Part shown: piece after piece, positions 3,750 through 36,681 of the stretch
How positions within the stretch are numbered: position 1 is the stretch's first letter
Layout: the number at the start of each line of letters is the position of its first letter
NCBI RefSeq assembly: GCF_003385955.1
Contig: NZ_QRDW01000001.1
Coordinates: 873,854 to 937,853, forward strand
DNA from: Aestuariispira insulae
GTDB lineage: Bacteria > Pseudomonadota > Alphaproteobacteria > UBA8366 > Aestuariispiraceae
Direction of reading: 5' to 3'
DNA: 64,000 nucleotides
The notes under the pieces: model-generated
Databases searched by the model: none
What the model saw: the letters and a program-made list of their open reading frames with translations, nothing else
Told to the model about the DNA's origin: nothing
Position numbers and translations under genes: made by a program

Positions 3750-3871
3750 AATAATGCCTCCTGCAACTGGATTTATTTCACGACCTACATTCCACCCATC
3801 CCAATTGAAGAATTTACTTTTGTGCCCTGTTCATTAATCATCCGGCCCCTGAATTCCGGACATCATCTCGG

Positions 3872-5635: not shown

Positions 5636-5713
5636 GGGATGCTCGCCCCCCGAAATCAATGGCTTCCGGGGGAGAGCATAGAGGGATTCGCCGAGCGCGC
5701 AAAACCCTGTTTA

Positions 5714-8110: not shown

Positions 8111-8242
8111 GGGTACTTTCTTGTGATTGTCTTGCTTATCAATTGTCTCTAAATCCTAGCCGAAAAGTTGGACGTGATTCTCACGCCTCGGGCAAGCATT
8201 CCGGCTTGCTAAAAATGCCCGCTCACACCATCCTGCGCAACC

Positions 8243-10768
8243 ATGTTTGAACTGCCGATCGATCCTCTGCTGCCGGACATCACCAAGTCCCTGGAAAGCA
8301 ATGCCAACCTGGTTTTGCAAGCACCTCCCGGTGCCGGAAAGACCACCCGTGTCCCTCTGGCGCTGCTGGCGGCCTCCTGGCGGGGAAATGGCACTATCCT
8401 GATGTTGGAACCAAGACGCCTGGCGGCTCGCGCCGCCGCAATCCGCATGGCGCAAACGCTGGGTGAGCCGGTCGGCAAAACCGTTGGTTACCGCATCCAG
8501 CTGGATAACAAAGTCAGCACGGATACCCGGATCGAAGTGGTCACTGAAGGTATCCTGACCAGACGTTTGCAGCAGGACCCGGAACTGGACGGCGTCGCCG
8601 CGGTCATTTTTGACGAGTTTCACGAACGCAGCTTGCAGGCGGATCTGGGTCTGGCGTTATGTCTGGATGCCCAGGAAGGGTTGCGCGAGGATCTGCGCCT
8701 GATTGTCATGTCGGCAACGCTTGATGGCAAACCGGTGGCGGAACTGATGGGCAATGCCCCCATCCTGACCAGTGAAGGCCGGGCTTTTCCGGTCGAAACC
8801 CGGTATCTGGGCAAGCCCCCGGCCGCACGGTTCGGCGACAGTTTCACCCCGGCCATGACCGAGGCCATCAAACAGGCGCTGCGCGAAGAGACCGGCAGCA
8901 TTCTCTGTTTCCTGCCCGGCGAAGGCGAAATTCGCCGCCTTCAGGGCCGGCTGGAAAGTGCCTCGCTTGGCAATGATATCGTCATTGCCCCGCTGTTTGG
9001 CGCGCTGTCCCAAAAAGAACAGGACTTGGCGATCGCGCCATGCTCCACCGGCAAACGCAAAGTGGTGCTGGCAACCTCCATCGCCGAAACCAGCCTGACC
9101 ATCGAGGGTATCCGCATCGTCATTGATGGCGGCCTCTCACGCCAGCCCCGCTTCGATCCGCAAAGCGGCATGGGCAAGTTGGTGACAGAACCGGTGTCGC
9201 TTGCCGCCGCCTCCCAGCGTGCGGGCCGTGCGGGCCGCCTGGAACCCGGCATTTGTTATCGCCTCTGGAACAAAGCCGGTGAAGGCGCAATGCGAAAATT
9301 CACACCGCCGGAGATATTGGATGCGGATCTGGCCCCCCTGGCGCTGGATTTGGCTAATTGGGGTGTTCTGGATGCCAACAGCCTGAAATGGCTGACGCCA
9401 CCTCCAGAAGTTCCTATGCAACAGGGGCGCGCGCTGCTGCAATGGCTTGGCGCGCTGGATCACGAATTCAGGATCACCGCCCATGGGAAAGCCATAGCCA
9501 AAAAACCGATGCATCCGCGCTTTGCCCATATGATCGTGCGGGGCGATGAAATGGGCCTGGGCAGGCAGGCCTGCCAGGTCGCGGCCCTGCTGGGCGAACG
9601 GGACATTGTTTTGCGCGATGGCGCGCAGAGCGCTCCGGTCGATATGGCCCCCAGGCTGCAATCGCTGACACCGGCAGGGGGGCCGCTGAAGATCCACAAG
9701 GGCGCGCTCAGCCGGGTAAAAACCCTCTCCAAACAATGGGAAAAGCGCCTGGATTTAAAAATTCCGGAAACCGACCTGGACGATCAGGAGGCCCCCGGCG
9801 CGCTTATCGCGCTTGCCTATCCGGACCGGGTCGCGGAGCGGCGGCCGGGCAAACAGGCGCGCTATCGGATGAGCAACGGCAAGGGGGCCACCCTGCCCAT
9901 CGATGATTCGTTGCAGGATGCCCCCTTCCTGGCCATTGCCTCTGTAACCGGGGCTGGCCGTGACGCCCAGATCCGCTTGGCCGCCCGTCTGGAAGCCGAT
10001 CTGATTGAAAGATTGTTTTCTGACCAGTTGGAAACGGGAGAGACCGCTGCCTGGGACAGCCGGACCAAATCAGTGCAGGCCAGACTGCAGAAGAAGTTCC
10101 ATGCGGTTGTGCTGGCCGATGCTCCCGCCAAAACCATCCCGCCCGAGAAAATTACCGAAGGGCTGGTTCAGGGCATCCGGGAGACCGGCCTGCAGTGCCT
10201 GCCCTGGTCTGTTGAGGCCACGAGCCTGCGTGACAGGATCGCCTGCCTGCGGCTATTGGATGGAGAGTCATCATATTGGCCGGACCTTTCCGACGACATA
10301 CTGGCCGATACAATGGAAGACTGGCTTTTGCCCTATCTGGCGGGCAAAAGCAGGCTGGAACATTTACAGGATTTGGATCTGGTGCAGATCCTGAAATCGG
10401 GTCTGGACTGGGAAAAGCAGCAGGAGATGGACCGCCTCGCCCCCAGCCATTGGACCGTGCCGAGCGGCTCTTCTATCCGGCTCGATTACAGCAATCCGGA
10501 GGCCCCCGTTCTACCGGTCAAATTGCAGGAAATGTTTGGTGCCATCGAGACGCCGACCATTGCCGACGGTCGCCTGGCCCTTACCATTCATCTGCTATCG
10601 CCTGCCGGGCGGCCGCTGCAGGTCACACAGGACCTGCCCGCCTTCTGGGAAAACGGCTATAAACATGTGAAAGCTGAAATGAAGGGACGCTATCCGAAGC
10701 ATCCCTGGCCCGATAACCCCTTGACGGCAGAACCGTCCCGGCACACTAAGAAGCGCATGGGTCAATAA
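8243..10768 (+). CDS. hrpB: ATP-dependent helicase HrpB
   Basis: An 841-residue DExH-box helicase. Walker A is APPGAGKTTRVPL near residue 30, motif II is DEFHER rather than DEAH, motif III is SATLD, and motif VI lies in ASQRAGRAGRLEPG. These are followed by the helicase-associated region and the HrpB-specific C-terminal domain. Family members are predicted RNA helicases; the cellular substrate is not well known. The ATG at 8243 lacks a strong ribosome site. It is followed 12 bp later, on the same strand, by an ORF containing the antiporter gene. Confidence 0.95.
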   Translation: MFELPIDPLLPDITKSLESNANLVLQAPPGAGKTTRVPLALLAASWRGNGTILMLEPRRLAARAAAIRMAQTLGEPVGKTVGYRIQLDNKVSTDTRIEVVTEGILTRRLQQDPELDGVAAVIFDEFHERSLQADLGLALCLDAQEGLREDLRLIVMSATLDGKPVAELMGNAPILTSEGRAFPVETRYLGKPPAARFGDSFTPAMTEAIKQALREETGSILCFLPGEGEIRRLQGRLESASLGNDIVIAPLFGALSQKEQDLAIAPCSTGKRKVVLATSIAETSLTIEGIRIVIDGGLSRQPRFDPQSGMGKLVTEPVSLAAASQRAGRAGRLEPGICYRLWNKAGEGAMRKFTPPEILDADLAPLALDLANWGVLDANSLKWLTPPPEVPMQQGRALLQWLGALDHEFRITAHGKAIAKKPMHPRFAHMIVRGDEMGLGRQACQVAALLGERDIVLRDGAQSAPVDMAPRLQSLTPAGGPLKIHKGALSRVKTLSKQWEKRLDLKIPETDLDDQEAPGALIALAYPDRVAERRPGKQARYRMSNGKGATLPIDDSLQDAPFLAIASVTGAGRDAQIRLAARLEADLIERLFSDQLETGETAAWDSRTKSVQARLQKKFHAVVLADAPAKTIPPEKITEGLVQGIRETGLQCLPWSVEATSLRDRIACLRLLDGESSYWPDLSDDILADTMEDWLLPYLAGKSRLEHLQDLDLVQILKSGLDWEKQQEMDRLAPSHWTVPSGSSIRLDYSNPEAPVLPVKLQEMFGAIETPTIADGRLALTIHLLSPAGRPLQVTQDLPAFWENGYKHVKAEMKGRYPKHPWPDNPLTAEPSRHTKKRMGQ

Positions 10769-10797
10769 TCAACAATCATTTGGGTGGGGGAATTCCG

Positions 10798-12054
10798 TTG
10801 AGCATCCTCGATATCGCGTCCCTGTTGATCGTCCTGGCGGCGATTGCGGGTTTCATTAATCATCGTTTCATTCATCTGCCCCATACCATCGGCTTGGTGA
10901 TCATTGCCATGGTCTCGTCCCTTGGCGTGCTGGGGCTGAATTTTGCGGCGCCCGGCCTTGGGATCGGTGAAGCGGTCACCGGCCTGCTGGCGCAGATCGA
11001 TTTCAACGAAGCCCTGATGAAGGGCATGCTGAGTTTCCTTCTGTTTGCCGGGGCCATGCATGTGGATCTGGATAAGCTGGCGGATAAGAAATGGGCGGTC
11101 GGGCTGATGGCAACCATGGGGGTCATCACCTCCACCTTCCTGATCGGCACGGCCATGTGGTGGATTTTAAACGCACTCGGCCAGCCCATCCCCTATTTAT
11201 ATGCCCTGCTGCTTGGTTCCCTGATCAGCCCGACAGATCCGGTCGCGGTGCTCTCGATCCTGAAGACCGTTTCCATTCCAAAGTCACTGGAAATCAAGAT
11301 TGCCGGAGAATCTCTCTTCAATGACGGTGTCGGTGTGGTGGTCTTCCTGGTGATCCTGGCCCTGGCCACGGGCGCCGGCGGCCATGGCGGTGAGATGGGA
11401 CCGACAGAGGTTGCCAAACTGTTTGCCCTGGAAGCCTTCGGCGGCGCGGCATTGGGCCTGATTGCCGGTTATATCGCCTATCTGGCATTAAGCGCGCTCG
11501 ACGAATTTTCCCTGGAAGTGCTGATCACCCTGGCCCTGGTCATGGGATCCTATGCGCTGGCCTACCATCTCCATGTCAGCGGTCCGATCGCCGTCGTGGT
11601 CGCAGGCCTGCTGATCGGTAACAAGGGGATGAAAAACGCCATGAGCGAAAATACCCGCGATCATGTGGAGAAATTCTGGATCCTGCTGGACGAGATCTTT
11701 AATTCCGTGCTGTTCCTGTTGATCGGCATGGAGGTGTTGGTGGTCGGTTTCGGCACCGATCATATGCTGGCCGGCCTGATCGCCATTCCGGTGGTACTGG
11801 CCGCCCGCATGATCGCGGTTTCCATTCCCATCCGCGGGCTGGGCCTGATGGGGCGTCAATTCACCAAGGGGGCAGTGCCGGTCTTAACCTGGGGCGGTCT
11901 TCGGGGCGGCATTTCAGTCGCGCTGGCGCTCTCCCTCCCGGAAAGTGACTATAAGCCGGTGATCCTGACCATCACCTATATCGTTGTGGTTTTCTCAATC
12001 ATTGTGCAGGGGCTCAGTATCAAGCATGTGATCGCCCGTTTCGTGAAGGATTGA
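10798..12054 (+). CDS. Na+/H+ antiporter, CPA1 (NhaP-like) family
   Basis: A 418-residue polytopic membrane protein with about 12 hydrophobic segments. Family motifs visible are LGSLISPTDPVAVLSIL and IAGESLFNDGVGVVVF, which carry the conserved Asp residues of the ion path, and the late WGGLRGGISVALALSLP. It should exchange Na+ (or K+) for protons across the inner membrane. I chose the TTG at 10798-10800 because GGGTGGGGGAA sits just before it; an in-frame TTG at 10780 would put that ribosome site inside the gene. It starts 29 bp after hrpB and is followed by a hairpin terminator. Confidence 0.9.
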   Translation: MSILDIASLLIVLAAIAGFINHRFIHLPHTIGLVIIAMVSSLGVLGLNFAAPGLGIGEAVTGLLAQIDFNEALMKGMLSFLLFAGAMHVDLDKLADKKWAVGLMATMGVITSTFLIGTAMWWILNALGQPIPYLYALLLGSLISPTDPVAVLSILKTVSIPKSLEIKIAGESLFNDGVGVVVFLVILALATGAGGHGGEMGPTEVAKLFALEAFGGAALGLIAGYIAYLALSALDEFSLEVLITLALVMGSYALAYHLHVSGPIAVVVAGLLIGNKGMKNAMSENTRDHVEKFWILLDEIFNSVLFLLIGMEVLVVGFGTDHMLAGLIAIPVVLAARMIAVSIPIRGLGLMGRQFTKGAVPVLTWGGLRGGISVALALSLPESDYKPVILTITYIVVVFSIIVQGLSIKHVIARFVKD

Positions 12055-12370
12055 TTTCCCCTGAATGCGAGAACCGGACCTGTAAACCAGGTCCGGTCAT
12101 GCAATCTCTTTCGAGAGAGAGGGGAGTATAAGAGCGGGTTCCGGGAGGGGAGTAGAACCCGTTTACTAGGGTATCTTCCGCTATGAAAAGACCAGGCGTT
12201 TTTTCCCATCTTCAACAGAAATAATCATTCATCCCAAAGATCACTCGAAGCCTAACATTAGACTTTCACGATTTATCAAGATTTTCCCGCCATGATGCCT
12301 TCTTAGGGACGGTGACATGAGTGCTTGAGGAACGGACCAAAACCGGAAATCAAGTTTCAGGAGGGAAATA
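12055..12370. other. Intergenic region after the antiporter gene
   Basis: This 316-bp gap contains the hairpin terminator at 12073-12097 and, near its end, the AGGAGG ribosome site for the binding-protein gene (just before 12371). A short CTCT/AGAG inverted repeat lies near 12106-12120. I see no further gene or clear promoter. Confidence 0.6.
12073..12097 (+). terminator. Hairpin terminator after the Na+/H+ antiporter
   Basis: Perfect 10-bp stem ACCGGACCTG (12073-12082) / CAGGTCCGGT (12088-12097) with a 5-nt loop TAAAC, starting 18 bp after the stop codon. The following bases are only moderately T-rich, so termination strength is uncertain. Confidence 0.65.
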
Positions 12371-13561
12371 ATGGGAAAGCTCAGCACCCTTATTACCTTA
12401 GTAACATCATTCCTATTCATGTCCGGCGCAGTATCGGCGCAATCACCCGCGCCCATCCTTATCGGCCTGGATGCCGACATGAGTTCAGGCTCCGCTCAAT
12501 CCGGAGAAGCGATCCGGCGCGGCATCGTCCTGGCCATTGAAGACATCAATGCAACAGGCGGCGTCCTGGACAGGCCTGTCAAGCTTGTGGTGAGGGATCA
12601 TCGCGGCAATCCGGCACGCGGCAATGACAATCTGCTGGAACTGGCGGACATGCCGGACATGGTGGCAGTATTCAGTGGCATCCATACGCCTGTCGTGCTC
12701 AAAGAACTGAAGACCATTCACGAAAAGAAGCTTTTGTTCCTGGTGCCCTGGGCCGCAGGAACGCCCATCATCGACAATGACTATCAGCCGAATTTCGTCT
12801 TCCGCGTTTCCGTCAGGGATCAATATGCCGGGGCCTTCCTGGTCGATCATGCCATGTCGCGCGGGTTTAAAAAACTGGGCCTGCTGTTCGAACAGACCGG
12901 TTGGGGGCGCTCGAACGAGCGCGCCGTTTCAACCGCTCTGACGGACAAAAATACGGACTATGCCGGCATTGAATGGTTCAGTTGGGGAATAACGGACCTG
13001 AGCCCCCATATTGAAAGACTGCGTCAGAAAGGCGCCGACGCCATCCTGTTGGTCGCCAATCCGAAGGAAGGGGGGGTTGCCGTGCACAGCATGGCGGCAT
13101 TGGACCAGGAAAGTTCCCTGCCAATCATTTCCCATTGGGGCATCAGTGGCGGCAACTTTTTCCAGAACAATCAAGAGGCCTTGTCCAGGATCGATTTCCA
13201 ATTCCTGCAAACCTTTTCCTTCTTTGACCCACCGGATAATGAAATGGCGGATCGCCTTTGGCAGGCCTATCAAAACCATTTCCCGGAAACACGCACCATC
13301 GGCGATGTTCCCTCCCCGGTTGGCACCGCACACGCATATGACCTCATGAAATTGCTGGCTGTTGCTATCCGGCAGGCCGGAACCACGGATCGAGCAAGCA
13401 TCAGGGATGCCATGGAAAACTTGCCGGCCGTCGGCGGGGTAATGAAACATTATGATCCACCTTTCACCCCCGCAAAACACGATGCCCTTGGGCCGGACAG
13501 CTTTATCATGGCCCGATATGACGACAACGGCAGCATCATCCCCGCAGGTGTCAAGCCGTGA
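12371..13561 (+). CDS. Periplasmic substrate-binding protein (branched-chain amino acid / amide type)
   Basis: A 396-residue type-I periplasmic binding protein. An N-terminal signal peptide (basic start, hydrophobic core, cleavage near AVSAQS) is followed by the typical opening PILIGLDADMSSGSAQSGEAIRRGIVLA and the lobe features VAVFSGIHTPVVL and GFKKLGLLFEQTGWG. AGGAGG lies 7 nt upstream of the ATG. Related proteins usually feed ABC importers, but no permease or ATPase gene is nearby. Instead the stop codon overlaps the start of a hybrid histidine kinase by 4 nt (GTGA). The natural reading is that this protein presents a ligand to that kinase. The ligand is not predictable from sequence alone. 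Confidence 0.88.
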   Translation: MGKLSTLITLVTSFLFMSGAVSAQSPAPILIGLDADMSSGSAQSGEAIRRGIVLAIEDINATGGVLDRPVKLVVRDHRGNPARGNDNLLELADMPDMVAVFSGIHTPVVLKELKTIHEKKLLFLVPWAAGTPIIDNDYQPNFVFRVSVRDQYAGAFLVDHAMSRGFKKLGLLFEQTGWGRSNERAVSTALTDKNTDYAGIEWFSWGITDLSPHIERLRQKGADAILLVANPKEGGVAVHSMAALDQESSLPIISHWGISGGNFFQNNQEALSRIDFQFLQTFSFFDPPDNEMADRLWQAYQNHFPETRTIGDVPSPVGTAHAYDLMKLLAVAIRQAGTTDRASIRDAMENLPAVGGVMKHYDPPFTPAKHDALGPDSFIMARYDDNGSIIPAGVKP

Positions 13562-16500
13562 TCAGATTGCTCAAACATCTGTTTCTCCCGGATCGCGGTT
13601 CTCTTTTTTCGATCCTGCTGAAACGGACCATGCCGGTCTCACTGCTGGCGTTGGGTCTTGCCGGCTATATTATTTTGGAACGCGCCGACAATACCCGCCT
13701 GAAAAAAGTGGACGCAGAACTGGAGGAACTGGATGTTTTTGGCTCCGCCCTTTTGGAAACGAGGCTCAACAGCATCATCGACCAGGCACGGAACTTGTCA
13801 GAGAGTTCGTTAATCATCAACGGGCTGATCGACCATGAGGGCCGTGATTTCTACATGCCGCCGTTTTTCCGTTCGCTGAAAATCGCCTCACCGGCCGATG
13901 TAGAGGTCAGCCTCACCGATTACAAAGGGCGGATCCTCTATCAGAATAGCGGTCAGGCCGAACCGATGCTGCCGACAAATGAATGGCTGGAAACGGTAGT
14001 GGACGAAGGCACCCCGTATTTTGCAACCGACCCAAGCCAGCTTTTCATGGCGTTTCCGGTCCATTATGCCGGATTACCGGAAGGGGCACTGATCGCCCGT
14101 ATCGGGCATTCGCAAATGGAAAACCTGTTCCGGCTCAATCTGGCCGGTGCCGATTCCTATGTTTCAATCCCGGGTTCATTCTTGATGGCAGGGTCCGGCC
14201 GATATCAGCGCTGGAACAGCGACACACCACCAAGCCTGGATAGTAGCGCATTCTTCAGCCGCAGAACCGCCCTTTCCGAGCATTTCGACCTCGCGCTTAC
14301 CATCACTTTGCCCCGGGAGGCGGGGATTGCTGAATTGAAATGGGTTTATGATTTCCTGATTGCTGCCCTGGTAATTGCTGTGATCACCTCCATCGCCTCC
14401 ATCATCCTGTCGGCAACATTGGCGGGCAAGCAACTGGCACCACTGATCCGCTCAATCGAAAGCATCCAAAGCATGCAGGACACCCGGATCAGAATGCCCG
14501 CCACAGGTGCCGATGAAATCCGACAGGTCGGCAAACGGCTCAACCGCATGCTCGACAAGCTTCACAGAACATCAACCTCCCGGGATTATCTGGACAGTAT
14601 CTTTTCCGGCATATTGGACGGTATCATCACCATCGACCTGGACGGCACGATCGAAACCGTCAATCAAGCCTCGCTCCAGTTGTTCGGGTATGAAGAGGCG
14701 GAGTTGATTGGCAAGGATGTTTCGATCCTCTTGCCCAAAGACGAACGTTCCGCCCATAAAAAATATGTCCGGCAATCAGAATTATACGGAACCCGCATCA
14801 TCAGCCGCAGCCGTAATCTGAAAGGATTGCGCAAAGATCAAACCACTTTTGATCTGGAATTGATGGTCACGCCTTTAGGACAGGAAAAACCGCGAGGGTT
14901 TGTCGGGGTCTGCCGGGATATCACCGATCGTCTCAAAGCGGCCCAACGTCTGGCCGACAGTGAAGTGAGATACCGCAGCATTCTTGAGTCCGCATCGGAT
15001 GGATATCTCTATCTGGATCCGGCGCTGGGCATCATTGTCGATACCAATGATGCGCTTTTGCACATGTGTGGTTATCAAAAAGATGATGTTGTCGGACGGT
15101 CACCATCATTTTTGTTCACGCGCGACAGTCACTCGACCTTGGCAAATCACGGCGGTGAGAATATCAACGGTCAGCCCAAACCGATCGAGATTTCCCTAAA
15201 ATGCAAGGATGGGTCCATCCGGCATGTCCGGTATAACCTGAACAGCGCACAGGACAATCACGGAAAAATTCTTGCACAATTTGCCATTCTGACCGACCTC
15301 ACCCACGAAGTGCAGCTGCGCCAAACCCTCGAGCTGGCCCGGCAGGAAGCAGAGAATATCGCCCGCATGAAATCCGATTTCCTCGCCAATATGAGTCATG
15401 AAATCAGAACACCGATGAACGGCGTCATCGGGATGCTGGAACTGCTGGCAGACACGCGCCTGACCAAAACGCAAAAGAACTATATCGAAACCGCCCTGAA
15501 ATCCGCCGATATGCAGCTAAGCGTGATCAACGACATCCTGGATTATTCCAAGATTGAGGCCGGTAAGCTGTCTTTAGAAGAAACCGAATTCAACTTGCGC
15601 GAGCTATTTAAAGACGTCATCACCCTCCATCGCGCCAGTGCCGAGACCAAAGAGCTTGTCCTGACCTGCCAACTGCCGGAAGACCTGCCGGAACGCTACA
15701 TGGGGGATCCGACCCGATTGCGCCAGGTCGTGGTTAATCTGGTTGGCAACGCCATCAAATTCACCGATCAGGGGTCGGTCACCATCACTTGCCGGGAGAA
15801 ACAACATCGACCAGATCGATCCACGCTCGAGATCCGCGTCATTGATACCGGCATCGGCATTGAAGCAGAAAAGATCGACCAGCTCTTCCAGCCATTCAGC
15901 CAAGCTGACAGTTCGACCACACGCAAATTTGGCGGCACCGGGTTAGGCTTGATGATTTCAAAAAGCATCCTTGATGCGATGCAGGGAACCATCGGGGTCG
16001 AGAGCACTCTTGGCCAGGGAACAGAGTTTTGGCTGGAACTGCAACTGCCGCTCGCAACGGGCGAACAGACGCCTCCCCCTGTCAGCGTATCCGCTGTGAT
16101 GGACCAATCGGCAGGCCCGCTTCGTTTGGATGACTGCCGCATCCTGCTGGTCGAGGATACGCTGATCAATCAGAAGGTCGCCCATGGCATTTTGAAAACA
16201 TATGGTTGTTCAATAGACTTGGCCGAAGATGGCTTGCAAGCCGTCGACCAGTATAAAAATCAGGACTATGACCTGGTGCTAATGGATGTTCAAATGCCGA
16301 AGCTAGACGGTTTCGGGGCAACAAAACGCATTCGCCAATTTGAAAAAGAAGTCGGTAAAGCAAGGGTGCCGATCGTGGCACTGACCGCCCATGCCCTGAA
16401 AAGCGACCGGGAATTGTCCCTGCAAAACGACATGGACGATCATCTGGCCAAACCTTTTCGCAAAGAGGATCTGGAGCTTATCCTGCGGCAATGGCTGAAG

Positions 16501-27469: not shown

Positions 27470-29455
27470 TCACTTCAACGCCTTTTCCAGCAATGCGGTT
27501 AATTCATCCTCCATTCGCGCGATCACATCAATGAAACAGTCGCAAAAGATCTCCAGGAAATGTGTTTTCTGGTTTGCCCCATCCAGACGCCTCAATAGAA
27601 AATGCCCCGTTTGTACAATCATGATCACAGTGCCATTGGCCACAACCCGGGCCGCCGCATCTGTGCCGTGAGCCAGTTCTTCCTGACCCTGTTGCAGAAG
27701 GGGCCGGATCTCATCATACATCTCACGGAAAACCACATCCGCATCGGCATTCGCCCGCGCCTTATGACGCGCTAGTATGGTTTTTAAGGTCGCGAAAATC
27801 TCACGCAGGCGAGCACCAAATTCGTCGATACGCTCATCAGAAACTATGGCGCCCGGTTCATAGGCCGGCATTTCATCCAGGATCGCTTTTTTCAACACAT
27901 CCTTTTCCACCAGACCCGCCGTAATATTCACCGCTTTTGGGTCCACCGGCTGCGTGCCCAAAATCCGGACCCCATCCGAACAGTTATAGACTTTCAGATG
28001 ATTTGAACTTGTAAACAGTTTTTCAAAAAACATCCGGGCCAGGATCATGATCCGACTGGTGTAAACCCGATCCCGCCGATTGCCGGCAACCGGTATATTC
28101 TGCGGATCGGCCAAGGCCACTTCCTGCATGGTCTGGCCGGTGGCTTCCAGCATCCTGTTTTTCGAATATTCGTAAATCGAATCCTTGGAATGATGGGTCT
28201 CCGGATTAGGACCGCCAAGGTCAATGCCATAGAGCAGAAATTCGGTGATCCCAAAGGAAATACCAGCCCTGCAAGCAAGGTTAGTCACCGTTGGCCCGCT
28301 TAGGGGCACCATATCCGCCATCTCCACAAACAGCTTGGTCGGACAGAGCGAATCCCTGAAATAGAAAATGGTTTCCTTGAATAGTCCCGGGATGCGCGGA
28401 TCGACTGTTGTTGGCGCAATCAGGATGGTATTTTTCAAACCCACCTCTTCCTCAATCGCCTCAAGCACATCCACATTCATCGCGACATTTTCGAACTGGG
28501 TGTGAAAATCCGGTTCAATCCCATTCCGTTTCATGATCGTGATGGCGGTTCCGCCGGATATGACGATCGTCTTGTCTGCGTTACGCTGAATGCTGTCGAT
28601 GGATTGATCAATGGAGGGACCACTGCCGACAATCAGTGCCGGTATGGTCTTCGGACTGACGGCTGACGGCCCCATCAACCGGAAATGATGGCGTTTCAGA
28701 TTGGCCACCGTGTTGGCAAACATCAGGCATTCATCTTCAAAAAAGCCCATGGATGCCGCCAAGGTGGTCAGGTTCACCCGGAAATGATCCCCCGCCTGGT
28801 CGATCAGATCATCCCCGTCCCGTTCCCGGAAGATGTAGCTGCCGTCGACAAGGGTATGATCAACACCGCGCAATGCCTGAAGCGCCCAATTGGCCGCTGC
28901 CTCCGGATCTTCCTCCAGAATAATGCGGACGGTCCCGCCGCGCGCTTCCAGTTTTTGAAACAGTCCGTCAAATGGCAGGATATTCAGACAGGCCCATAAA
29001 CGATCCGGATCCGTTTCCACCAAGACCAGATTGCGCACGTCCAACCGGTCGAGCAGCAGCAAAGCGGCAATCCCACTCCCGGCACCGAAACTGACGAGAT
29101 ACCCAGCATCCGAAGACGGTTCGGCAGATAGCTCCCAGCCATCCAGGGCACCGTAGAGCGCCTTGCGAAAATCGCTGTGCACGGTTCCCGGATCCTGCCG
29201 GGCCGATGGCCGATCCAGCATGTATCGTTCCGGTGATTGGAGATATTCATCCACCTGGACCGCCGCAGAAGTCAGCGCGTCGGGTTGATAGAACGGCACA
29301 CCCGCCCGCACCAGATTCAAAGTACCGGCTTCTGCCTCCCCCACAAGTGAGAAATCCGTCGGCCGAAAATTCCGGAAACGTGCCGCCAACCGCCGGCCAT
29401 CCGCTTCTTTTTCCTTGATCACATCCAGATTGGAATCATACAGCGACCGGTTCAT
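27470..29455 (-). CDS. Motility-associated factor (Maf) glycosyltransferase, DUF115 family
   Basis: A 661-residue protein of the Maf/DUF115 family. The central Rossmann-like region is recognisable: IPALIVGSGPSIDQSIDSIQRN, ADKTIVISGGTAITIMKRNGIEPDFHTQFE and GISFGITEFLLYGIDLG. An earlier segment (VSFGAGSGIAALLLLDRL) resembles the N-terminal Maf domain. Maf proteins transfer nonulosonic acids (pseudaminic, legionaminic or related sugars) from CMP to Ser/Thr of flagellin in the cytoplasm. I chose the third in-frame ATG (29453-29455), which has GGAG 6 nt upstream. It is the last gene of the eight-gene nonulosonate operon, 15 bp after hisH. Flagellin itself is not in the window. Confidence 0.88.
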   Translation of the reverse strand: MNRSLYDSNLDVIKEKEADGRRLAARFRNFRPTDFSLVGEAEAGTLNLVRAGVPFYQPDALTSAAVQVDEYLQSPERYMLDRPSARQDPGTVHSDFRKALYGALDGWELSAEPSSDAGYLVSFGAGSGIAALLLLDRLDVRNLVLVETDPDRLWACLNILPFDGLFQKLEARGGTVRIILEEDPEAAANWALQALRGVDHTLVDGSYIFRERDGDDLIDQAGDHFRVNLTTLAASMGFFEDECLMFANTVANLKRHHFRLMGPSAVSPKTIPALIVGSGPSIDQSIDSIQRNADKTIVISGGTAITIMKRNGIEPDFHTQFENVAMNVDVLEAIEEEVGLKNTILIAPTTVDPRIPGLFKETIFYFRDSLCPTKLFVEMADMVPLSGPTVTNLACRAGISFGITEFLLYGIDLGGPNPETHHSKDSIYEYSKNRMLEATGQTMQEVALADPQNIPVAGNRRDRVYTSRIMILARMFFEKLFTSSNHLKVYNCSDGVRILGTQPVDPKAVNITAGLVEKDVLKKAILDEMPAYEPGAIVSDERIDEFGARLREIFATLKTILARHKARANADADVVFREMYDEIRPLLQQGQEELAHGTDAAARVVANGTVIMIVQTGHFLLRRLDGANQKTHFLEIFCDCFIDVIARMEDELTALLEKALK

Positions 29456-29470
29456 TGACATCTCCAAACC

Positions 29471-30115
29471 CTACCAACCAAGGAACCGTTCCAACAGGTC
29501 CAGCCCCGCTTCCGCGCTTTTTTCCGGATGGAATTGTGTGCCGACCACATTGTCTTTCGCCACGGCCGCGCAGATCGCCTGCCCTCCATAACGTGTTTCC
29601 GCCAGGCGATCATCACTGTTGGCAGGCCGGGCCGCATAAGAATGAACAAAATACACCTGAGAACCACCCCGCAGCCCGCCATCCAATAGGGTCTTGTCCC
29701 AACGGCCCGCAATCGGCTCCCCCAGGGCGTTCCATCCAATATGCGGCACTTTCAGGCGCCCGCCATCGCCATCCAGGGTAGGAATGGGCTCCACCATGCC
29801 GTCGATCAGGCCCAGCCCCGCATGTTTGCCAAATTCATGCCCTTCGGTCATCAGAATCTGCATGCCGACACAGATCCCAAGGAAGGGATTGCCCCGCGCT
29901 GCAACCTCCTTCAGCGGGTCCAGCAAATCCAAGCCACGCAAAAGCGCCATACAATGAGCAAAAGCGCCAACCCCCGGCAGGACCAGACGATCCGCATGAC
30001 GCACCTGTTCCGGCGTCTGTGCCAGTGTCACCTCGCCCGCACAACATTCCAATGCCCGCCGCACACTGAGCAGGTTGCCGGAACCGTAATCAACAATCGT
30101 GACCCTCCGGTTCAT
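29471..30115 (-). CDS. hisH: HisH-type glutamine amidotransferase subunit (sugar amidation paralogue)
   Basis: A 214-residue class-I glutamine amidotransferase. The catalytic triad is intact: Cys82 (LGICVGMQIL) and His196/Glu198 (GTQFHPEKS). In histidine synthesis HisH supplies ammonia to HisF, but here it sits with an N-acetyl-sugar amidotransferase inside a nonulosonate operon, the same arrangement as WbpG-HisH2-HisF2 and PseA-linked genes. The expected role is to make ammonia from glutamine for an amidino group on a sugar. Start overlaps hisF stop by 4 nt. No other histidine gene is nearby. Confidence 0.88.
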   Translation of the reverse strand: MNRRVTIVDYGSGNLLSVRRALECCAGEVTLAQTPEQVRHADRLVLPGVGAFAHCMALLRGLDLLDPLKEVAARGNPFLGICVGMQILMTEGHEFGKHAGLGLIDGMVEPIPTLDGDGGRLKVPHIGWNALGEPIAGRWDKTLLDGGLRGGSQVYFVHSYAARPANSDDRLAETRYGGQAICAAVAKDNVVGTQFHPEKSAEAGLDLLERFLGW

Positions 30116-30873
30116 GGCTCGATCTCCCGCACCCGCAATCCCGCCTGCTTCAGTTCGGCTTTCATTTCCACCAAACCAATCCGCTCATAATGGAGAATAT
30201 CCGCCATGGAAACCGCATCTGGAACGGCCTGTTCCACCAATTTTGTCAGATCCGATACAGATCCCATTCCACCGCTTGCAATGACCGGCAGATCCACAGC
30301 CTGCGTCACCGCCGCGACCAGCTCGATATCATATCCTTTGCGGGTTCCTTCCTGATCGACGGAGGTGATCAGCAATTCACCAGCCCCGAACTCCGCCCCT
30401 TGGCGGACCCAATCAATCACATCCCGTCCGCTATGCTCACGCCCATTGTCATAATAGGCCTCCCATCCGCCGCTGGGCTTGCGTTTGGCTTCGACACTCA
30501 AAACCATGCATTGCGCGCCGAAAGTTTCCGCCATTTCCCGGACCAGTTCCGGACGTTTCAAAGCTGCCGTATTGATAGCGACCTTATCCGCGCCCGCACG
30601 CAGCAAGGTTTTAGCATCCTCTACCGAGCGAACACCGCCGCCCACCGTCATAGGGATAAAAACATCCCGGCTCGCTTTCTCCACGATATTTGCCAGGTTG
30701 TTTCGGTCATAAAGGCTGGCGACAATATCCATGTAGAGCAGTTCATCGGCACCGGCCTTATAGTATTTGACCGCATATTCCTGTGGATCGCCGATCACGC
30801 GCAGACCTTCCAGCCGAACGCCCTTGATCAGGTTCGGCGCTTTCACATCCAGGCGGGGAATGATCCTCAACAT
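30112..30873 (-). CDS. hisF: HisF-type ammonia-channel subunit (sugar amidation paralogue)
   Basis: A 253-residue beta/alpha barrel related to HisF. It starts MLRIIPRLDVKAPNLIKGV, the form seen in polysaccharide-cluster paralogues, whereas biosynthetic HisF usually has CLDVxxGRVVKG. Asp9 matches catalytic Asp11 of Thermotoga HisF, but the residue matching Asp130 is Glu128 (SVEAKR in place of AIDAKR). This suggests the barrel no longer makes imidazole glycerol phosphate and serves as an ammonia conduit for the neighbouring amidotransferase. I chose the ATG at 30871-30873; a longer frame overlaps the upstream gene. The gap to that gene is 10 bp. Confidence 0.88.
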   Translation of the reverse strand: MLRIIPRLDVKAPNLIKGVRLEGLRVIGDPQEYAVKYYKAGADELLYMDIVASLYDRNNLANIVEKASRDVFIPMTVGGGVRSVEDAKTLLRAGADKVAINTAALKRPELVREMAETFGAQCMVLSVEAKRKPSGGWEAYYDNGREHSGRDVIDWVRQGAEFGAGELLITSVDQEGTRKGYDIELVAAVTQAVDLPVIASGGMGSVSDLTKLVEQAVPDAVSMADILHYERIGLVEMKAELKQAGLRVREIEP

Positions 30874-30883
30874 ACCGCTTATC

Positions 30884-32218
30884 CTAGAGGTCATCGAACA
30901 CGGTCCGGCGCAGTTTCCACACACCATCTTCATGTTTCCAGATATGCGGGGACCGGAACCGGTCTGTCAGGGCATCGAAATAGGACCGGTCCATGATCGG
31001 CTGCTCGAACAGTTTTGAGGCTTTGGGAAATTCTGCTTCCGGCAGGCTCAGATACTGGAAAATCTCTTCGGCGAAGCGCTCGGGAAATTCCCCGTCGAAC
31101 TTACGGACCAGCATCTGTCCCTCTTCCCGGGTAATGTCGCCGGAACGAACTTCCTGAGCCGCGTCATAGGTGGCCCGGCCGATGCCGAATTTGATATAGG
31201 TGCAGTAATAATGGAAATCATCAATCCTGTCGTCGATGGAGTTATATTTTGAATAGGTGCCCGGCGTGCGTTCCGGAGACGCTTCAAACCCGCCATGTTC
31301 GGCGGCAAAATAATAACAACTCTGCGGATGCCATTTCAGATAGTAGCCAAGATAATGAACGGTGGTCCCGACCTCGGCCAGGCCCTTGGGGTCCGCCGGT
31401 AGATAAGGATCAACATCACTTCGGACCATATCAAAATCGGCCAACAGTTCCGGCACGGAAACACCCCCCAGATACATTTCGCTCAAATCATCGGCGGCAA
31501 AATAATCCGTTGATCGGGTCGCCCCCTTCATATCGCCCTTGGGATTTCCATATTCCGCTTCATTTTCACCATAAAAAACCAACGGGATCTTATGTAGGAC
31601 TGACATTTTCGGTGCCAGATTCTTCTGGCCCAGAATAAAGGCCTGGAAGGGATGGAATAAATTTTCCACTGCCAGACGGGTCAACAATCGATGGGCTCGC
31701 CCGTTCGGGGTCATCAGATAATTGTCGAACCCGCTATGGATCCAACGCTCGAAATTTCGCCAACCCCATTCGGTATAAACATGCGGCGCCCAAGTCACGG
31801 TGAGCGGATGCATGCCGTATTTATATTTCAACATGTAGGAGGCATAAAAGCTGTCCTTGCCGCCCGAGCCAGGCACCACGCAATCGTATGAACCGTTGCG
31901 GCTGCGATATTTGTCACAAAGCGCGACCAATTCACGCTCGCGCGCCTCCCAGTCAATCTCCGCCTTCTTCTGTTCCGCAACATGACAGGCGTCACAGACA
32001 CCGGCCTCATCCAGATGAATGGTGCCTTTCTTACTGTCGGCTTTATGTTTGAATTCAACGGCGGAATTGGGCCGCTGATTGGAAATCACGCATTTGCTGC
32101 AATAGGTAATATCCTGCGGCAGGCCATAATAACATTCAGGGTTATTGACCGCGCCGGAATAGGCCGACAAATCCGGCTGAAAACGACCCATATCCGGATA
32201 TTTAAAGGGGCTCTTCAT
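30884..32218 (-). CDS. N-acetyl sugar amidotransferase (PseA/WbpG-like)
   Basis: A 444-residue ATP-dependent amidotransferase. The N-terminal half has two Cys pairs suited to zinc binding (Cys40/Cys43 in CSKCV, Cys75/Cys78 in CDACH) and the PP-loop GSGGKDSF at about 117-124, which binds ATP and adenylates the substrate carbonyl. The family replaces an N-acetyl oxygen with ammonia to give an acetamidino group, as in pseudaminic or legionaminic acid derivatives and ManNAc3NAmA. The ammonia should come from the hisH/hisF products encoded directly downstream. It follows the CMP-sugar synthetase gene by 3 bp. Confidence 0.9.
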   Translation of the reverse strand: MKSPFKYPDMGRFQPDLSAYSGAVNNPECYYGLPQDITYCSKCVISNQRPNSAVEFKHKADSKKGTIHLDEAGVCDACHVAEQKKAEIDWEARERELVALCDKYRSRNGSYDCVVPGSGGKDSFYASYMLKYKYGMHPLTVTWAPHVYTEWGWRNFERWIHSGFDNYLMTPNGRAHRLLTRLAVENLFHPFQAFILGQKNLAPKMSVLHKIPLVFYGENEAEYGNPKGDMKGATRSTDYFAADDLSEMYLGGVSVPELLADFDMVRSDVDPYLPADPKGLAEVGTTVHYLGYYLKWHPQSCYYFAAEHGGFEASPERTPGTYSKYNSIDDRIDDFHYYCTYIKFGIGRATYDAAQEVRSGDITREEGQMLVRKFDGEFPERFAEEIFQYLSLPEAEFPKASKLFEQPIMDRSYFDALTDRFRSPHIWKHEDGVWKLRRTVFDDL

Positions 32219-32221
32219 AGA

Positions 32222-32956
32222 TCAGTCTTCCTTTGTCACATCAACCACGCCGGTTTCCAGTCCCATCCGTCTTGCCATCAGAAAAGAGACAATCTCCAGA
32301 TCCAGGGGATTGTCGATGTCCAATGACCGGTCATCAGGCATTTCAAACAGTTTTGTATCCTCGTAAAACACTTTGGGTTCCGGGAAAAAGCTCTCCCGTT
32401 TCCAAACGTAAATCGAAGCATTCATATCAAAGCAACGAGGCGCATCCTGTCTGCGGGTCACCGCTTGTTCCAACGGTTTCGACAGGTGGACAAAATCATC
32501 CGATCCCCGTTCCACCAGATTGAAATAAGGCGACCGGCGACTGACAGCACCAGTAATCACATTGGAACAGCCACCGTCCTCCAGCAGGGCCACCGCACCG
32601 GTGATATCCTTGCGCAGTCGCAGGGGGGAGGTGACATCCATATCCACCATGATATCAAAAGCCATGCCGGTTTTCTGTTCCGCGGCCTCGACACAATGTT
32701 TTACCACCGGCAATTTGGCGGAGTTATCGGTGGCCAACGCATCCGGACGGCGGATCAGCAACTCAACACCATATTCCTCTGCAGCCTGCAGGATGGCCGC
32801 AGAATCACTGCTGACGGCAATGGCATCAAACATGGCGCTTTCCTGCGCCTGGACAATGGTGTGGGCAATCAGCGGCCGCCCCAGAACCGGCGCCAGATTT
32901 TTAACCGGCACCCCCTTGGAACCGCCGCGCGCACAAATCGTACAAATCCGCTTCAT
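32222..32956 (-). CDS. neuA: CMP-nonulosonic acid cytidylyltransferase (NeuA/LegF/PseF type)
   Basis: A 244-residue acylneuraminate cytidylyltransferase. The nucleotide-binding motif is ARGGSKGVPVKN at about 9-20, and other family blocks are VSSDSAAILQAAEEYG and VDMDVTSPLRLRKDI. It activates a nonulosonic acid with CTP to form the CMP-sugar used by the Maf transferase. Sequence alone does not tell whether the sugar is sialic, legionaminic or pseudaminic acid; the presence of a NeuC-type epimerase argues against pseudaminic acid. Its start overlaps the stop of the oxidoreductase gene by 4 nt. Confidence 0.92.
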   Translation of the reverse strand: MKRICTICARGGSKGVPVKNLAPVLGRPLIAHTIVQAQESAMFDAIAVSSDSAAILQAAEEYGVELLIRRPDALATDNSAKLPVVKHCVEAAEQKTGMAFDIMVDMDVTSPLRLRKDITGAVALLEDGGCSNVITGAVSRRSPYFNLVERGSDDFVHLSKPLEQAVTRRQDAPRCFDMNASIYVWKRESFFPEPKVFYEDTKLFEMPDDRSLDIDNPLDLEIVSFLMARRMGLETGVVDVTKED

Positions 32957-33885
32957 ACCGCGCCCTCCCTCTGGACCCAGGTTCCCGTCCGATCGGCCCG
33001 CTCCACATCCCGGATCATTGCCATCACCGCCATGCCGGTCGACAAATCACATAGCCTGTTGTGACCGGGACCGCCCATGAAGGCTTCCAGTTGGTCTTTG
33101 TAACTTTGCAGATCCTCACGGTGAATATGTTCTAATTCACCATTCACACAAAGACGGCCTGCGATCAGGTCCGCTTCTAACGTTGTATGGGTTCCGTTGA
33201 CCAGAATGCTCCGGCGCGCCGGTCGGTCAAAATAATTCATCCGGATGGACAGTTGCGGACAATTGCTCATTGAGGCCATGATCGTCCAGCTGTCGTCACT
33301 GGTGATCTCAAACCCGCCAAGCCGACCGCCGAGTGCCGTCAGGCTGTTCCAGGGACCGCATAACAGCATGGCCAGATCCAGTTCGTGGCTGAGATCCCGT
33401 AACACGCCACCACCGGCAGCGGACGATGCGGAATAGGTTTCCTTCACATCTCTTGAGCGCCGCCAATCCGGCAGATATTGTCCCACTTCGATCCGCACGG
33501 AAACCAAAGGTTCTTCCAATTCAGCCAGCCGCGCCTGCAGATGCCGGATCACCGGATCAAATCGCAGATTATATCCGACAAAGATCTCCGATCCGATGGA
33601 TAGATCAGCTCCATCCGACCAATCCCGAAAAAGCGGTTTTTCCATCAGGACAGGTCCGTGAAAACCCGCCTCCCAAAGCTCTTGCAAATGTTCCAGATGC
33701 GCCGCGGTTTCGCTGGCAACCACGGTGTAGCCGGGTCGCCTGTCCAAGACTGCGTCTCTGATCACGGCATAATCACCGGCACCCGGCCGCCGGCTGACCG
33801 TGATCACATCATGTCCTTGCGTTTTCAATATTTCCGCGTGGCGCATCCCCGCACTGCCCAGGCCAATTACCAGCACCCGGCCCAT
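32953..33885 (-). CDS. Gfo/Idh/MocA family oxidoreductase in the nonulosonate operon
   Basis: A 310-residue NAD(P)-dependent sugar dehydrogenase-fold protein. The N-terminal Rossmann motif is VLVIGLGSAGMRHAEIL, and the EKP signature appears as LMEKPLF near residue 92. The C-terminal alpha/beta domain is present in full. Family members oxidise or reduce sugar hydroxyls. It is placed between neuB and neuA with overlaps of one base (TGATG) and 4 nt, so it probably edits the nonulosonic acid or its precursor. The exact substrate cannot be read from the sequence. Confidence 0.85.
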   Translation of the reverse strand: MGRVLVIGLGSAGMRHAEILKTQGHDVITVSRRPGAGDYAVIRDAVLDRRPGYTVVASETAAHLEHLQELWEAGFHGPVLMEKPLFRDWSDGADLSIGSEIFVGYNLRFDPVIRHLQARLAELEEPLVSVRIEVGQYLPDWRRSRDVKETYSASSAAGGGVLRDLSHELDLAMLLCGPWNSLTALGGRLGGFEITSDDSWTIMASMSNCPQLSIRMNYFDRPARRSILVNGTHTTLEADLIAGRLCVNGELEHIHREDLQSYKDQLEAFMGGPGHNRLCDLSTGMAVMAMIRDVERADRTGTWVQREGAV

Positions 33886-34979
33886 CAGATATTTTCCTCG
33901 ATCATCTGGTCAGGCAGATACAATTTTGTCGCCTTGCGCCCCAGGATGTGCCAATAGAGCGCGGGCGAAAGGCCGCCCGACGGCCGTTTAACCGTCAGAT
34001 TTTCCTCAGTAAAGACATCCCCCGGTTTGATGGAAGTGGCGGCAACCAGGCTTCGCCTTGCCGCTGTGACATTTTCCAACTCGCCTACGGATGGCTTCTT
34101 TTCACCTGTCCCCATCGCCCGCACCATAGCGTGCAGCCGCTCGACGAAATCCGTCAGCTCCACCGGTTCCAGTGAAGCCGAGTGATCCGGCCCCGCGGCC
34201 CCTTTGTCCAAGGTGAAATGTTTTTCGATGACACGAGCCCCAAGGGCAACGGCCGCGACCGCCGCATCCGCACCAAGGGTATGATCGGAATAACCGACCG
34301 GAAGGCCGAATTGGTCACGCAATGTTTCAAGGGCTCGAAGATTCACCTCCGCCATGGGGGTCGGATAGGCGGTGGTACAATGCAGCAGGGTGACTTTTTC
34401 AAACAGGATCTGCTGCGCATCGGCGGTTGCGCGAAGGGCCTTGAAATCCGTCGCCGCCGCCGGAATCTCAGACGTCAAATATCCATGGGCCAGAACACCC
34501 AGTGCCAGCGCCACCTCATCCGGCATCCCCATGCCTGTGGACAGGATAACCTCACGGCCCGTGCGAGCCGCCGCGTGAAGAAGCGGGGCGTTGGTCAAAT
34601 CACCGGAGCCGATCTTTATAAAAGGCGGATCCAACTCTCGATCCAAAAAGGCAAGATTGCCAAGATCAAACGGTGTTGCCGTAAATGCGATACCGAGGCT
34701 ATCGCAATAGGCTTTGACCTCCAGCACTTCATCCCGGGTCAGACTAAGCGCACGCAACATCTCCTGCTGACCGTGACCATAGGTGCCTTTTTCTGCGCCG
34801 TAGGCCTGCTGATACGGAGCCAACGGTGCCTGGGCACTGGTCAACTGACCAGGATCAAAAAGCTGGAACTTGATATAATCAGCCTTAGCAGTCAGAGCGG
34901 TATCCACCAGTGCTAACGCTTTTTTCACATCACCATCGTGATTGACGCCTGCTTCCGCGATTATCCGAAGCTCACTCAT
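33885..34979 (-). CDS. neuB: Nonulosonic acid synthase (NeuB/LegI type)
   Basis: A 364-residue enzyme that condenses phosphoenolpyruvate with an N-acetyl-mannosamine-type six-carbon sugar to give a nine-carbon acid. It begins with the family motif IIAEAGVNHDGDVKKALALVD; other features are KIGSGDLTN, STGMG, GYSDHT and the block ARVIEKHFTLDK. The C-terminal antifreeze-like SAF domain (about 285-345) is present. I chose the ATG at 34977-34979, preceded by AAGGG, giving an 8-nt overlap with neuC. Whether the product is sialic or legionaminic acid is not certain. Confidence 0.93.
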   Translation of the reverse strand: MSELRIIAEAGVNHDGDVKKALALVDTALTAKADYIKFQLFDPGQLTSAQAPLAPYQQAYGAEKGTYGHGQQEMLRALSLTRDEVLEVKAYCDSLGIAFTATPFDLGNLAFLDRELDPPFIKIGSGDLTNAPLLHAAARTGREVILSTGMGMPDEVALALGVLAHGYLTSEIPAAATDFKALRATADAQQILFEKVTLLHCTTAYPTPMAEVNLRALETLRDQFGLPVGYSDHTLGADAAVAAVALGARVIEKHFTLDKGAAGPDHSASLEPVELTDFVERLHAMVRAMGTGEKKPSVGELENVTAARRSLVAATSIKPGDVFTEENLTVKRPSGGLSPALYWHILGRKATKLYLPDQMIEENI

Positions 34980-36159
34980 CAAGCGGCCCTTCATAGAATT
35001 GTTTCGCCATCAAGGCGGTGAAATCTTCCACTTGTGTCAGCCTATCGACGAAACGGACCGATGAACAGCCGTCACCATAGGGATTTTTCACGTCTGAGAA
35101 ATCAGCCTGAAACCCCTTTTCCATCGCAGCTACAACCTCTTCCGCCAAACTGCCGCAGTCGATCACGGATGCGGCCTTCAACCGGCCATCCTGCCGGGAA
35201 CCGATATTCACGGTTGCGATGCCGAAACTTGGCACCTCATAAAGTCCGCTGGAAGAATTGCCCACAACCATATCCACCTGGTTCAGAAGGTTGAGATAGA
35301 GGTCAGTACCCAGATTGGCGCGAAACGCGGCATTCGGTCTCTCATCCGCATAGTGCGAAAACCGCCCTGAAATCGCCTGGCCGCCCGTATCCGCATTACT
35401 GCCGGTCAGGACGATAGAGAGATCCTGACCAAAATGATCCAGGGCTTCGAGAAGATTTTGCGCCTGCCCCAGAGGGTCCCCCTGCTCCAGGGTGGCGGGA
35501 TGCAGGGTCACCATCAGATTTTTCTTTCCCGGCGCAAGTCCAATGGCCTGGAACACTTCATCACGGGGCTTAAAAGCCATATGGCGGATCTGGTCCAGGC
35601 CGGGGCTGCCGATCATATGAATGCGGTCCGGCTGTTCGCCCATGCGCATCAGCCGATCCGCCGCCTCGTCGTTGCTCGGAAAATGGAGGTGGGAAAGCTT
35701 GGTGATTGCATGGCGCATGGCATCATCGATCGCGCCCAATGTCAGATCGCCGCCACAAAGATGTGCAATAGGAAAGCCACACATGCTGGCTGCCGTGGCG
35801 GCGGCAAAAATCTCAAACCGATCGCCGAGCACAACCACCAGATCCGGATCCAGCTGAGGCAGGGCTTGTGAAAAACCGGCTATCCCCAGAGCCATCGCCT
35901 GGCAGATATCCGTTGGGCTATCCTTGCCCGGTATCAGCATTTCAATGCGAGCATCCACAGGAAATCCATCCTGCTCAATGATTTTCCAGGTCTCATCATG
36001 CGCATCTGAAAGATGCATGCCGGTCACGGCGACTTGTAGATGGAAGGCAGGGTGATCCTGCAATAGACGCATCGGCCAATGAAGCAGGCCATAATCGGCC
36101 CTGCTGCCGGTCACCACAAGAATGCGGCGCGGTCCTACGACTCGTTCAGACATTGTCAT
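34972..36159 (-). CDS. neuC: UDP-sugar 2-epimerase, hydrolysing (NeuC/LegG type)
   Basis: A 395-residue epimerase of the UDP-GlcNAc 2-epimerase family. It starts ILVVTGSRADYGLLHWPMRLL and contains DLVVVLGDRFEIFAAATAA and HLCGGDLTLGAIDDAMRHAITKL, typical of the hydrolysing NeuC/LegG branch that releases ManNAc or its 2,4-diacetamido analogue from UDP. It is the first gene of the nonulosonate operon and is divergent from mraZ. Two in-frame ATGs (36157-36159 and 36151-36153) are possible; neither has a strong ribosome site. Confidence 0.92.
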   Translation of the reverse strand: MTMSERVVGPRRILVVTGSRADYGLLHWPMRLLQDHPAFHLQVAVTGMHLSDAHDETWKIIEQDGFPVDARIEMLIPGKDSPTDICQAMALGIAGFSQALPQLDPDLVVVLGDRFEIFAAATAASMCGFPIAHLCGGDLTLGAIDDAMRHAITKLSHLHFPSNDEAADRLMRMGEQPDRIHMIGSPGLDQIRHMAFKPRDEVFQAIGLAPGKKNLMVTLHPATLEQGDPLGQAQNLLEALDHFGQDLSIVLTGSNADTGGQAISGRFSHYADERPNAAFRANLGTDLYLNLLNQVDMVVGNSSSGLYEVPSFGIATVNIGSRQDGRLKAASVIDCGSLAEEVVAAMEKGFQADFSDVKNPYGDGCSSVRFVDRLTQVEDFTALMAKQFYEGPLDE

Positions 36160-36264
36160 ATCCGGGCATTCTGGCCATGTGCTTTCAATCCCTTCTGGAT
36201 GGAGATCATATTAACCCGTTGTAAAGGCAAAGCAAAGCGCGTGCCGTTTATTAATTCACCATAA

Positions 36265-36318
36265 TCCCACGATTTCCCGCAATTCACCTCAAGCCAACCT
36301 GTTTCCCATAATTTCCCA
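36265..36318 (-). promoter_or_regulatory. Two tandem pairs of MraZ-like boxes on the neuC side
   Basis: TCCCA/TCCCG at 36265-36269 and 36275-36279, and TCCCA/TCCCA at 36304-36308 and 36314-36318. Each pair has a 5-nt spacer, hence a 10-bp period, the pattern described for MraZ (TGGGN direct repeats when read on the minus strand). They lie 106-159 bp upstream of neuC. Confidence 0.55.
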
Positions 36319-36548
36319 TTCCAGAAGATTTTTCAGTTTCTGAAAATGACGATCTTCAACTTATCTTTTACTTGAACAAAATGTGAACAAAATAAATATC
36401 CATAAAATCATTATCCAATAACAACTGGTTAGAAAAGCCATGTTTTTAGCCAGCCCCACCGTCTTTACTCAAATTACTGCCCAAGACTACTTGAACAGCA
36501 GTAAATCCATACTCACGTTACTGTCGTTCCCATTGACCGACCTAGCTT

Positions 36549-36573
36549 TCCCATGATATCCCATAATAACCCA
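36549..36573 (-). promoter_or_regulatory. Triple MraZ-like box upstream of mraZ
   Basis: TCCCA (36549-36553), TCCCA (36559-36563) and ACCCA (36569-36573), each separated by exactly 5 nt. Read on the minus strand this is three TGGGN repeats at 10-bp period, matching the known operator of MraZ, which represses its own dcw promoter. The repeats overlap the best -10 candidates, 109 bp upstream of the mraZ start codon. Confidence 0.7.
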
Positions 36574-36681
36574 GTAGTGTATTTGTGGGGTGAAGTGCAT
36601 CTGCCTTCATCCGGCTCCACTGGGACAGAGGTTCGGCATACCGCCGGGCATGACAGTTAAACCGGGGAAGAAATAGTCGCG

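Follow-up and report, generated by a model that had tools for sequence, protein, structure and literature searches.

An operon of eight genes in the stretch of DNA analysed here (the window, 64,000 nucleotides long) very probably supplies the second half of a pathway to CMP-legionaminic acid, plus the genes for an amidination step and for a glycosyltransferase that acts on flagellin, and CMP-Leg5Am7Ac stands as its most likely product. A sequence-only reading of the same DNA had suggested an unusual, perhaps undescribed, sugar. Most likely, however, the sugar is a known one, Leg5Am7Ac: the combination of NeuC with the oxidoreductase PtmF is normal in legionaminic acid clusters, the amidotransferase trio recurs elsewhere, and the five genes missing from the operon are found on another contig (C10) of the same genome, the window itself lying on C1. 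The novelty was misread because the operon had been considered apart from its genome.

The operon and its gene families

What can be read directly from the DNA is the content, order, homology and conserved motifs of the genes in the operon, along with the fact that the remaining pathway genes exist in the genome. All eight genes named by the sequence-only reading were confirmed in their order, strand and coordinates, and Pfam and NCBIfam models back each of the family assignments (Table 1). The tight spacing that it had described, with overlaps or gaps of at most 15 bp, holds as well. The successive spacings are -23, -1, -4, +3, -50, -4 and +3 bp. The -50 results if HisF is taken to start at the earliest ATG of its ORF; the ATG at ~30873 fits the starts of homologues better and leaves a 10-bp gap. 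Similarly, the Maf ORF starts with TTG, and a start at one of the in-frame ATGs 6-12 bp further on would leave a gap of 9-15 bp. The run is not a product of chance, since its genes are tightly packed, on the same strand and functionally related, and their order recurs in distant genomes. It is flanked by unrelated housekeeping genes: upstream, on the opposite strand, come mraZ and the dcw cluster, and downstream come ORFs of the metZ, rhodanese and PAS types, all as named from reading their translations. A scan for sigma-70 promoters returned 7 sites, against 6.8 expected from shuffled sequence.

Table 1. Features of the operon and of the gap upstream of it. The eight ORFs run from 36159 down to 27470 in the order listed (ORF list).
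Feature	Coordinates	Strand	Assignment and supporting matches
neuC/legG	34972..36159	-	hydrolysing NDP-sugar 2-epimerase; NeuC_NnaA TIGR03568, 416.7 bits, above cut-off
neuB/legI	33885..34994	-	nonulosonate (legionaminate) synthase; PF03102 and SAF domain
ptmF	32953..33885	-	Gfo/Idh/MocA N and C3 domains; assigned to the GDP-sugar segment of legionaminate synthesis
neuA/legF	32222..32956	-	CMP-nonulosonate cytidylyltransferase; PF02348 (CTP_transf_3); PseF-like, below cut-off
NASAT (WbuX/PtmG type)	30884..32218	-	ATP-dependent N-acetyl sugar amidotransferase; TIGR03573, 374 bits (cut-off 203)
wbuZ (hisF-like)	30112..30933	-	amidotransferase partner; TIGR03572, 280.8 bits (cut-off 299.7); true start probably ATG ~30873
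hisH-like glutaminase	29471..30115	-	ammonia supplier; TIGR01855, 196.6 bits (cut-off 105.4)
maf	27470..29467	-	putative flagellin nonulosonyl (legionaminyl) transferase; PF20157, 92.6 bits; PF01973, 95.2 bits
triple TGGGN repeat	36549..36573	-	MraZ-box-like, upstream of mraZ
two TGGGA(N5)TGGGA-like pairs	36265..36318	-	~105 and ~145 bp upstream of neuC; candidate extra MraZ sites

The family matches of NeuC, NeuB and NeuA bear out the proposed synthesis of a CMP-nonulosonate. In a PDB search the best solved relatives of NeuC were 5zlr/5xvs (263.5 bits), named in their entries as GDP/UDP-N,N'-diacetylbacillosamine 2-epimerase (hydrolysing), and solved CMP-Neu5Ac synthetases match NeuA. The NeuB_NnaB model TIGR03569 gives NeuB 389.6 bits, slightly under its cut-off of 399.65, as compared with 220.4 bits as PseI. 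On this ground, and given an operon without a gene of the PseG, PseH, PseB or PseC type, pseudaminic acid was rejected as the product. The N-terminal domain PF20157 of Maf and its MptE-like domain PF01973 both score above cut-off.

Nitrogen modification of the sugar had also been claimed and is accepted here as the formation of an amidine, in view of the NASAT trio and its conserved motifs. Over 425 aa, NASAT shares 70% identity with PDB 8WEX, the L. pneumophila NASAT (LpNASAT), presumably the product of ORF 28 of the LPS locus. It has a PP-loop SGGKDS at 118 and the cysteine pairs CSKC at 40 and CDAC at 75; a PP-loop SGGxDS and a zinc tetracysteine are features of the NASAT structure (PMC10607449). 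A tree built from 35 members of the family places it with LpNASAT in a group of 16 (support 100/98), and the two other WbuX proteins of the genome, on C15 and C2, lie far outside this group on long branches, with 26-28% identity to the window NASAT. Membership of the clade alone is no proof of substrate, because two plasmid relatives within it belong to clusters without NeuC in the annotated stretch. For L. pneumophila, the conversion of CMP-Leg5Ac7Ac to CMP-Leg5Am7Ac is the assigned one (PMC3766260).

Of the two partner proteins, the HisH-like one keeps the catalytic motifs GICVG and HPE. The HisF-like one is, by sequence comparison, WbuZ and distinct from the histidine-pathway HisF; that the pair are the genome's histidine genes was rejected, as a separate HisF is encoded on C3 with a HisA-like gene directly adjoining. 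Opposite the D in the IDAK/LDAK motif of histidine-pathway HisF, this WbuZ has E, as have most of the trio WbuZ proteins aligned, and this change could mark the loss of the cyclase function.

The oxidoreductase and the precursor genes on a second contig

The Gfo/Idh/MocA protein was scanned against ~85,000 species genomes, the best 80 loci were kept, and each of their ORFs was given the label of whichever of the eight window proteins and five C10 proteins it matched best. A Gfo homologue was recovered in 78 of these best 80 loci, among which neuA was found in 74, ptmA in 73, neuB in 68, neuC in 63, and legB or legC in 55. Where the Gfo match was strong (>150 bits; 33 of the best 80), neuA and ptmA were present throughout (33/33), neuB with neuC in 30/33, and ptmE, as well as legB or legC, in 29/33. 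The legionaminic acid operons that hold the best relatives have the make-up LegB-LegC-NeuC-NeuB-LegH-PtmE-PtmF-NeuA-PtmA, and the portion of the published Plesiomonas shigelloides cluster considered here has LegF adjoining PtmF ("oxidoreductase"), followed by PtmE, LegH, LegI, LegG, LegC and LegB (PMC4481668). Because its relatives lie in legionaminic acid operons, and because the P. shigelloides cluster includes PtmF, the window gene is, on synteny, PtmF, a normal part of the legionaminate GDP-sugar segment and not the sign of an extra modification. Its function is taken from synteny because a PDB search with the protein returned weak, generic dehydrogenases only; a literature search found no statement of the exact reaction of PtmF.

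Within 10 kb of C10 lie a LegC-type aminotransferase (327.9 bits), a LegH-type acetyltransferase (NeuD/LegH, 147.4 bits), a PtmE-like protein made up of a CBS domain and a nucleotidyltransferase, a PtmA-like SDR (123 bits) and LegB (415.7 bits, with 137.8 for the next-best match in the genome). The LegB and LegC encoded here are the genome's best family matches by a wide margin, and LegB, LegC and LegH all score below the NCBIfam curated cut-offs, so that their exact reactions are not certified by the family models. These five genes are unlinked to the eight-gene operon, and in relatives from the same family, order and class (L134, L135, L175 and L176) C10-type LegC, LegH and PtmE are clustered with NeuB, NeuC and the trio. 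Present in the genome, then, are the precursor genes LegB, LegC and LegH of the CMP-legionaminic acid pathway (on C10), the LegG, LegI and LegF types (genes 1, 2 and 4 of the operon) and, for the GDP-sugar segment, PtmF, assigned in the window by homology and synteny, and the PtmE-like and PtmA-like genes on C10; the segment in C. jejuni also takes in GlmU-like and PgmL genes. The NeuB loci on C15 and C2 were rejected as the source of the missing genes, their aminotransferases and dehydratases scoring far lower as LegC and LegB than those of C10.

On plasmid NZ_CP042825.1 of Rhizobium sp. WL3, LegB, LegC, NeuC, NeuB, LegH, PtmE, PtmF, NeuA, PtmA, NASAT, WbuZ and HisH are contiguous, and ABC transporter genes then follow. 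The window operon has this order minus LegB, LegC, LegH, PtmE and PtmA and with maf added as the last gene; the seven proteins in common are 43-71% identical (51% for NeuC, 50% for NeuB and 63% for NeuA). Of the eight genes, NeuC, NeuB, PtmF, NeuA, NASAT, WbuZ and HisH recur there in the same relative order; maf was not seen in the stretch of the WL3 plasmid examined. The addition of the amidination trio to a legionaminate cluster recurs in several genomes, and the window operon may have been derived from such a cluster by the loss or relocation of five genes.

Proposed pathway, acceptor and competing readings

In the proposed pathway, LegB, LegC, LegH, PtmE and PtmA from C10, together with PtmF of the operon, would make an NDP-linked (probably GDP-linked) 2,4-diacetamido-2,4,6-trideoxyglucose. 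NeuC/LegG would hydrolyse and epimerise this NDP-sugar, NeuB/LegI would condense the product with PEP, which supplies three carbons, to form Leg5Ac7Ac, and NeuA/LegF would activate the latter with CTP. The product expected of a legionaminate pathway is a D-glycero-D-galacto 5,7-diamino-3,5,7,9-tetradeoxy-nonulosonate. Ammonia from the HisH-like glutaminase would pass via the HisF-like partner to NASAT, which would turn one N-acetyl into an acetamidino group, giving most likely CMP-Leg5Am7Ac, and Maf would finally transfer Leg5Am7Ac to a flagellin. We infer here the identity of the sugar, the placing of the amidine at position 5 and not 7, and flagellin as the acceptor of the operon's Maf.

It is very improbable that the operon functions on its own, with NeuC acting on UDP-GlcNAc, NeuB forming Neu5Ac and the trio producing an undescribed acetamidino-neuraminic acid. 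The models TIGR03568 and TIGR03569 are indeed named for a UDP-GlcNAc epimerase and a Neu5Ac synthase, and the five upstream leg genes are absent from the operon. However, the operon has retained ptmF, a gene of the segment that makes the legionaminate precursor, the full upstream gene set is present in the genome, and the relatives with the same gene order carry LegB and LegC, so that the names NeuC and NeuB do not discriminate. A legionaminate stereoisomer (8-epi, for example) or a 7-acetamidino form in place of Leg5Am7Ac is quite unlikely as well, with no additional epimerase gene either within the operon or next to the genes on C10 and with a NASAT 70% identical to the enzyme of L. pneumophila, a 5-acetamidino maker. 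In favour of such an isomer, stereochemistry and amidine position are not fixed by sequence, and isomers of this kind do exist, such as the 8-epi-acinetaminic acid of A. baumannii (PMC5595891).

As regards the acceptor of Leg5Am7Ac, flagellin is the likely one; for the operon's own Maf the support is linkage, and the claimed transfer to flagellin is adopted in this sense, as implied by a putative transferase gene linked to the pathway genes. Leg5Am7Ac is found on the FlaA of C. jejuni 11168 and C. coli VC167 (PMC3958885), and in C. jejuni a putative legionaminyl transferase is known, Maf4 (PMC9298399). A surface polysaccharide as the main acceptor, with Maf serving another or an additional donor, seems unlikely, though there is a case for it: most NASAT-legionaminate clusters elsewhere come without maf, L. 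pneumophila puts the sugar in its O-antigen, and the presence of six Maf genes makes the assignment of a donor by linkage alone weak. Against this, maf is the last gene of a tightly spaced operon, no polysaccharide glycosyltransferase lies beside maf, or elsewhere beside the operon, within the 64-kb window, and the polysaccharide locus on C15 owns a NeuB, a cytidylyltransferase and a WbuX.

The six Maf-type genes of the genome, defined by PF01973, are on C4 (two), C7, C2 and C1 (two), and its six flagellin-domain genes are spread over several contigs, none of them adjoining the operon. For four of the Maf genes, no recognised nonulosonate gene lies within the surrounding 20 kb. On C2 (C2:462500-482000, 3764-14316), flagellin genes, a TPR protein, Maf, a NeuB/PseI-like synthase, an AsnB-type amidotransferase, WbuX and a GNAT protein lie in a row, with a PseC-like aminotransferase, an SpsF-like cytidylyltransferase and another Gfo/Idh protein on the opposite strand. 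By gene content this is a second flagellin-glycosylation locus; its sugar is not evident and could be a more unusual one than the sugar of the window operon. On C15 (C15:46500-66000), NeuB, a PseF-like cytidylyltransferase, WbuX, WbuZ, a LegC-like aminotransferase, FnlA and others form what is probably a third nonulosonate locus, devoted to a surface polysaccharide. These two NeuB-WbuX loci are further nonulosonate loci that could share precursors with the operon.

The 0.5-kb gap between neuC and mraZ (36160-36681) carries MraZ-box-like repeats. A strict form of the pair pattern occurs only twice in the 64 kb, both times in this gap, and the gap also holds 4 of the 6 near matches to TGGGA(N5)TGGGA, a pattern that was spotted post hoc; two of the four make up the triple near mraZ and two lie upstream of neuC. 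The triple, which fits an MraZ box, is found again in relatives, ahead of mraZ and about as far from it, and the relatives examined have no pairs at the place corresponding to those near neuC. A literature search on MraZ boxes found little. It is a doubtful idea that the operon could be under the control of MraZ, at the head of the divergent dcw cluster, which would tie flagellin glycosylation to the division programme.

Overall, the analysis leads to a concrete prediction, that a flagellar sugar of an alphaproteobacterium is acetamidino-legionaminic acid, and a pathway split over two loci was still recognisable by its conserved gene order. In genome scans, NeuC, NeuB and NeuA together with a Gfo/Idh protein would point to legionaminic acid, and neither to sialic acid nor to a new sugar; missing genes would be worth seeking elsewhere in the genome.

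Comparison with known systems

The LPS locus of L. pneumophila has NeuC, NeuB and NeuA in common with the window, the NASAT proteins of the two fall in one clade, and there, too, a dehydratase gene lies outside the main locus (PMC3766260); its product is an O-antigen homopolymer, whereas here maf is attached. The leg/ptm system of Campylobacter has the same set of LegB, C, H, G, I and F with PtmA, E and F, Leg5Am7Ac on flagellin and up to seven Maf genes, but its genes are near flagellin genes, in contrast to the two contigs, away from flagellin, over which they are distributed here. The flagellin of P. shigelloides is modified with legionaminic acid, and LegF again adjoins PtmF in the company of PtmE, LegH, LegI, LegG, LegC, LegB and PtmA, although the part of the gene table examined does not contain the amidination trio (PMC4481668). 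WbpG of P. aeruginosa (with HisH2 and HisF2) and WbuX of E. coli O145 amidinate an N-acetyl sugar by the same chemistry (PMC10607449); the likeness is by description, and they act on other LPS sugars, a ManNAc3N derivative and FucNAc. What is unusual in the present case is the split cluster, the attached maf and the MraZ-box-like repeats upstream of neuC, while the mechanism itself is ordinary.
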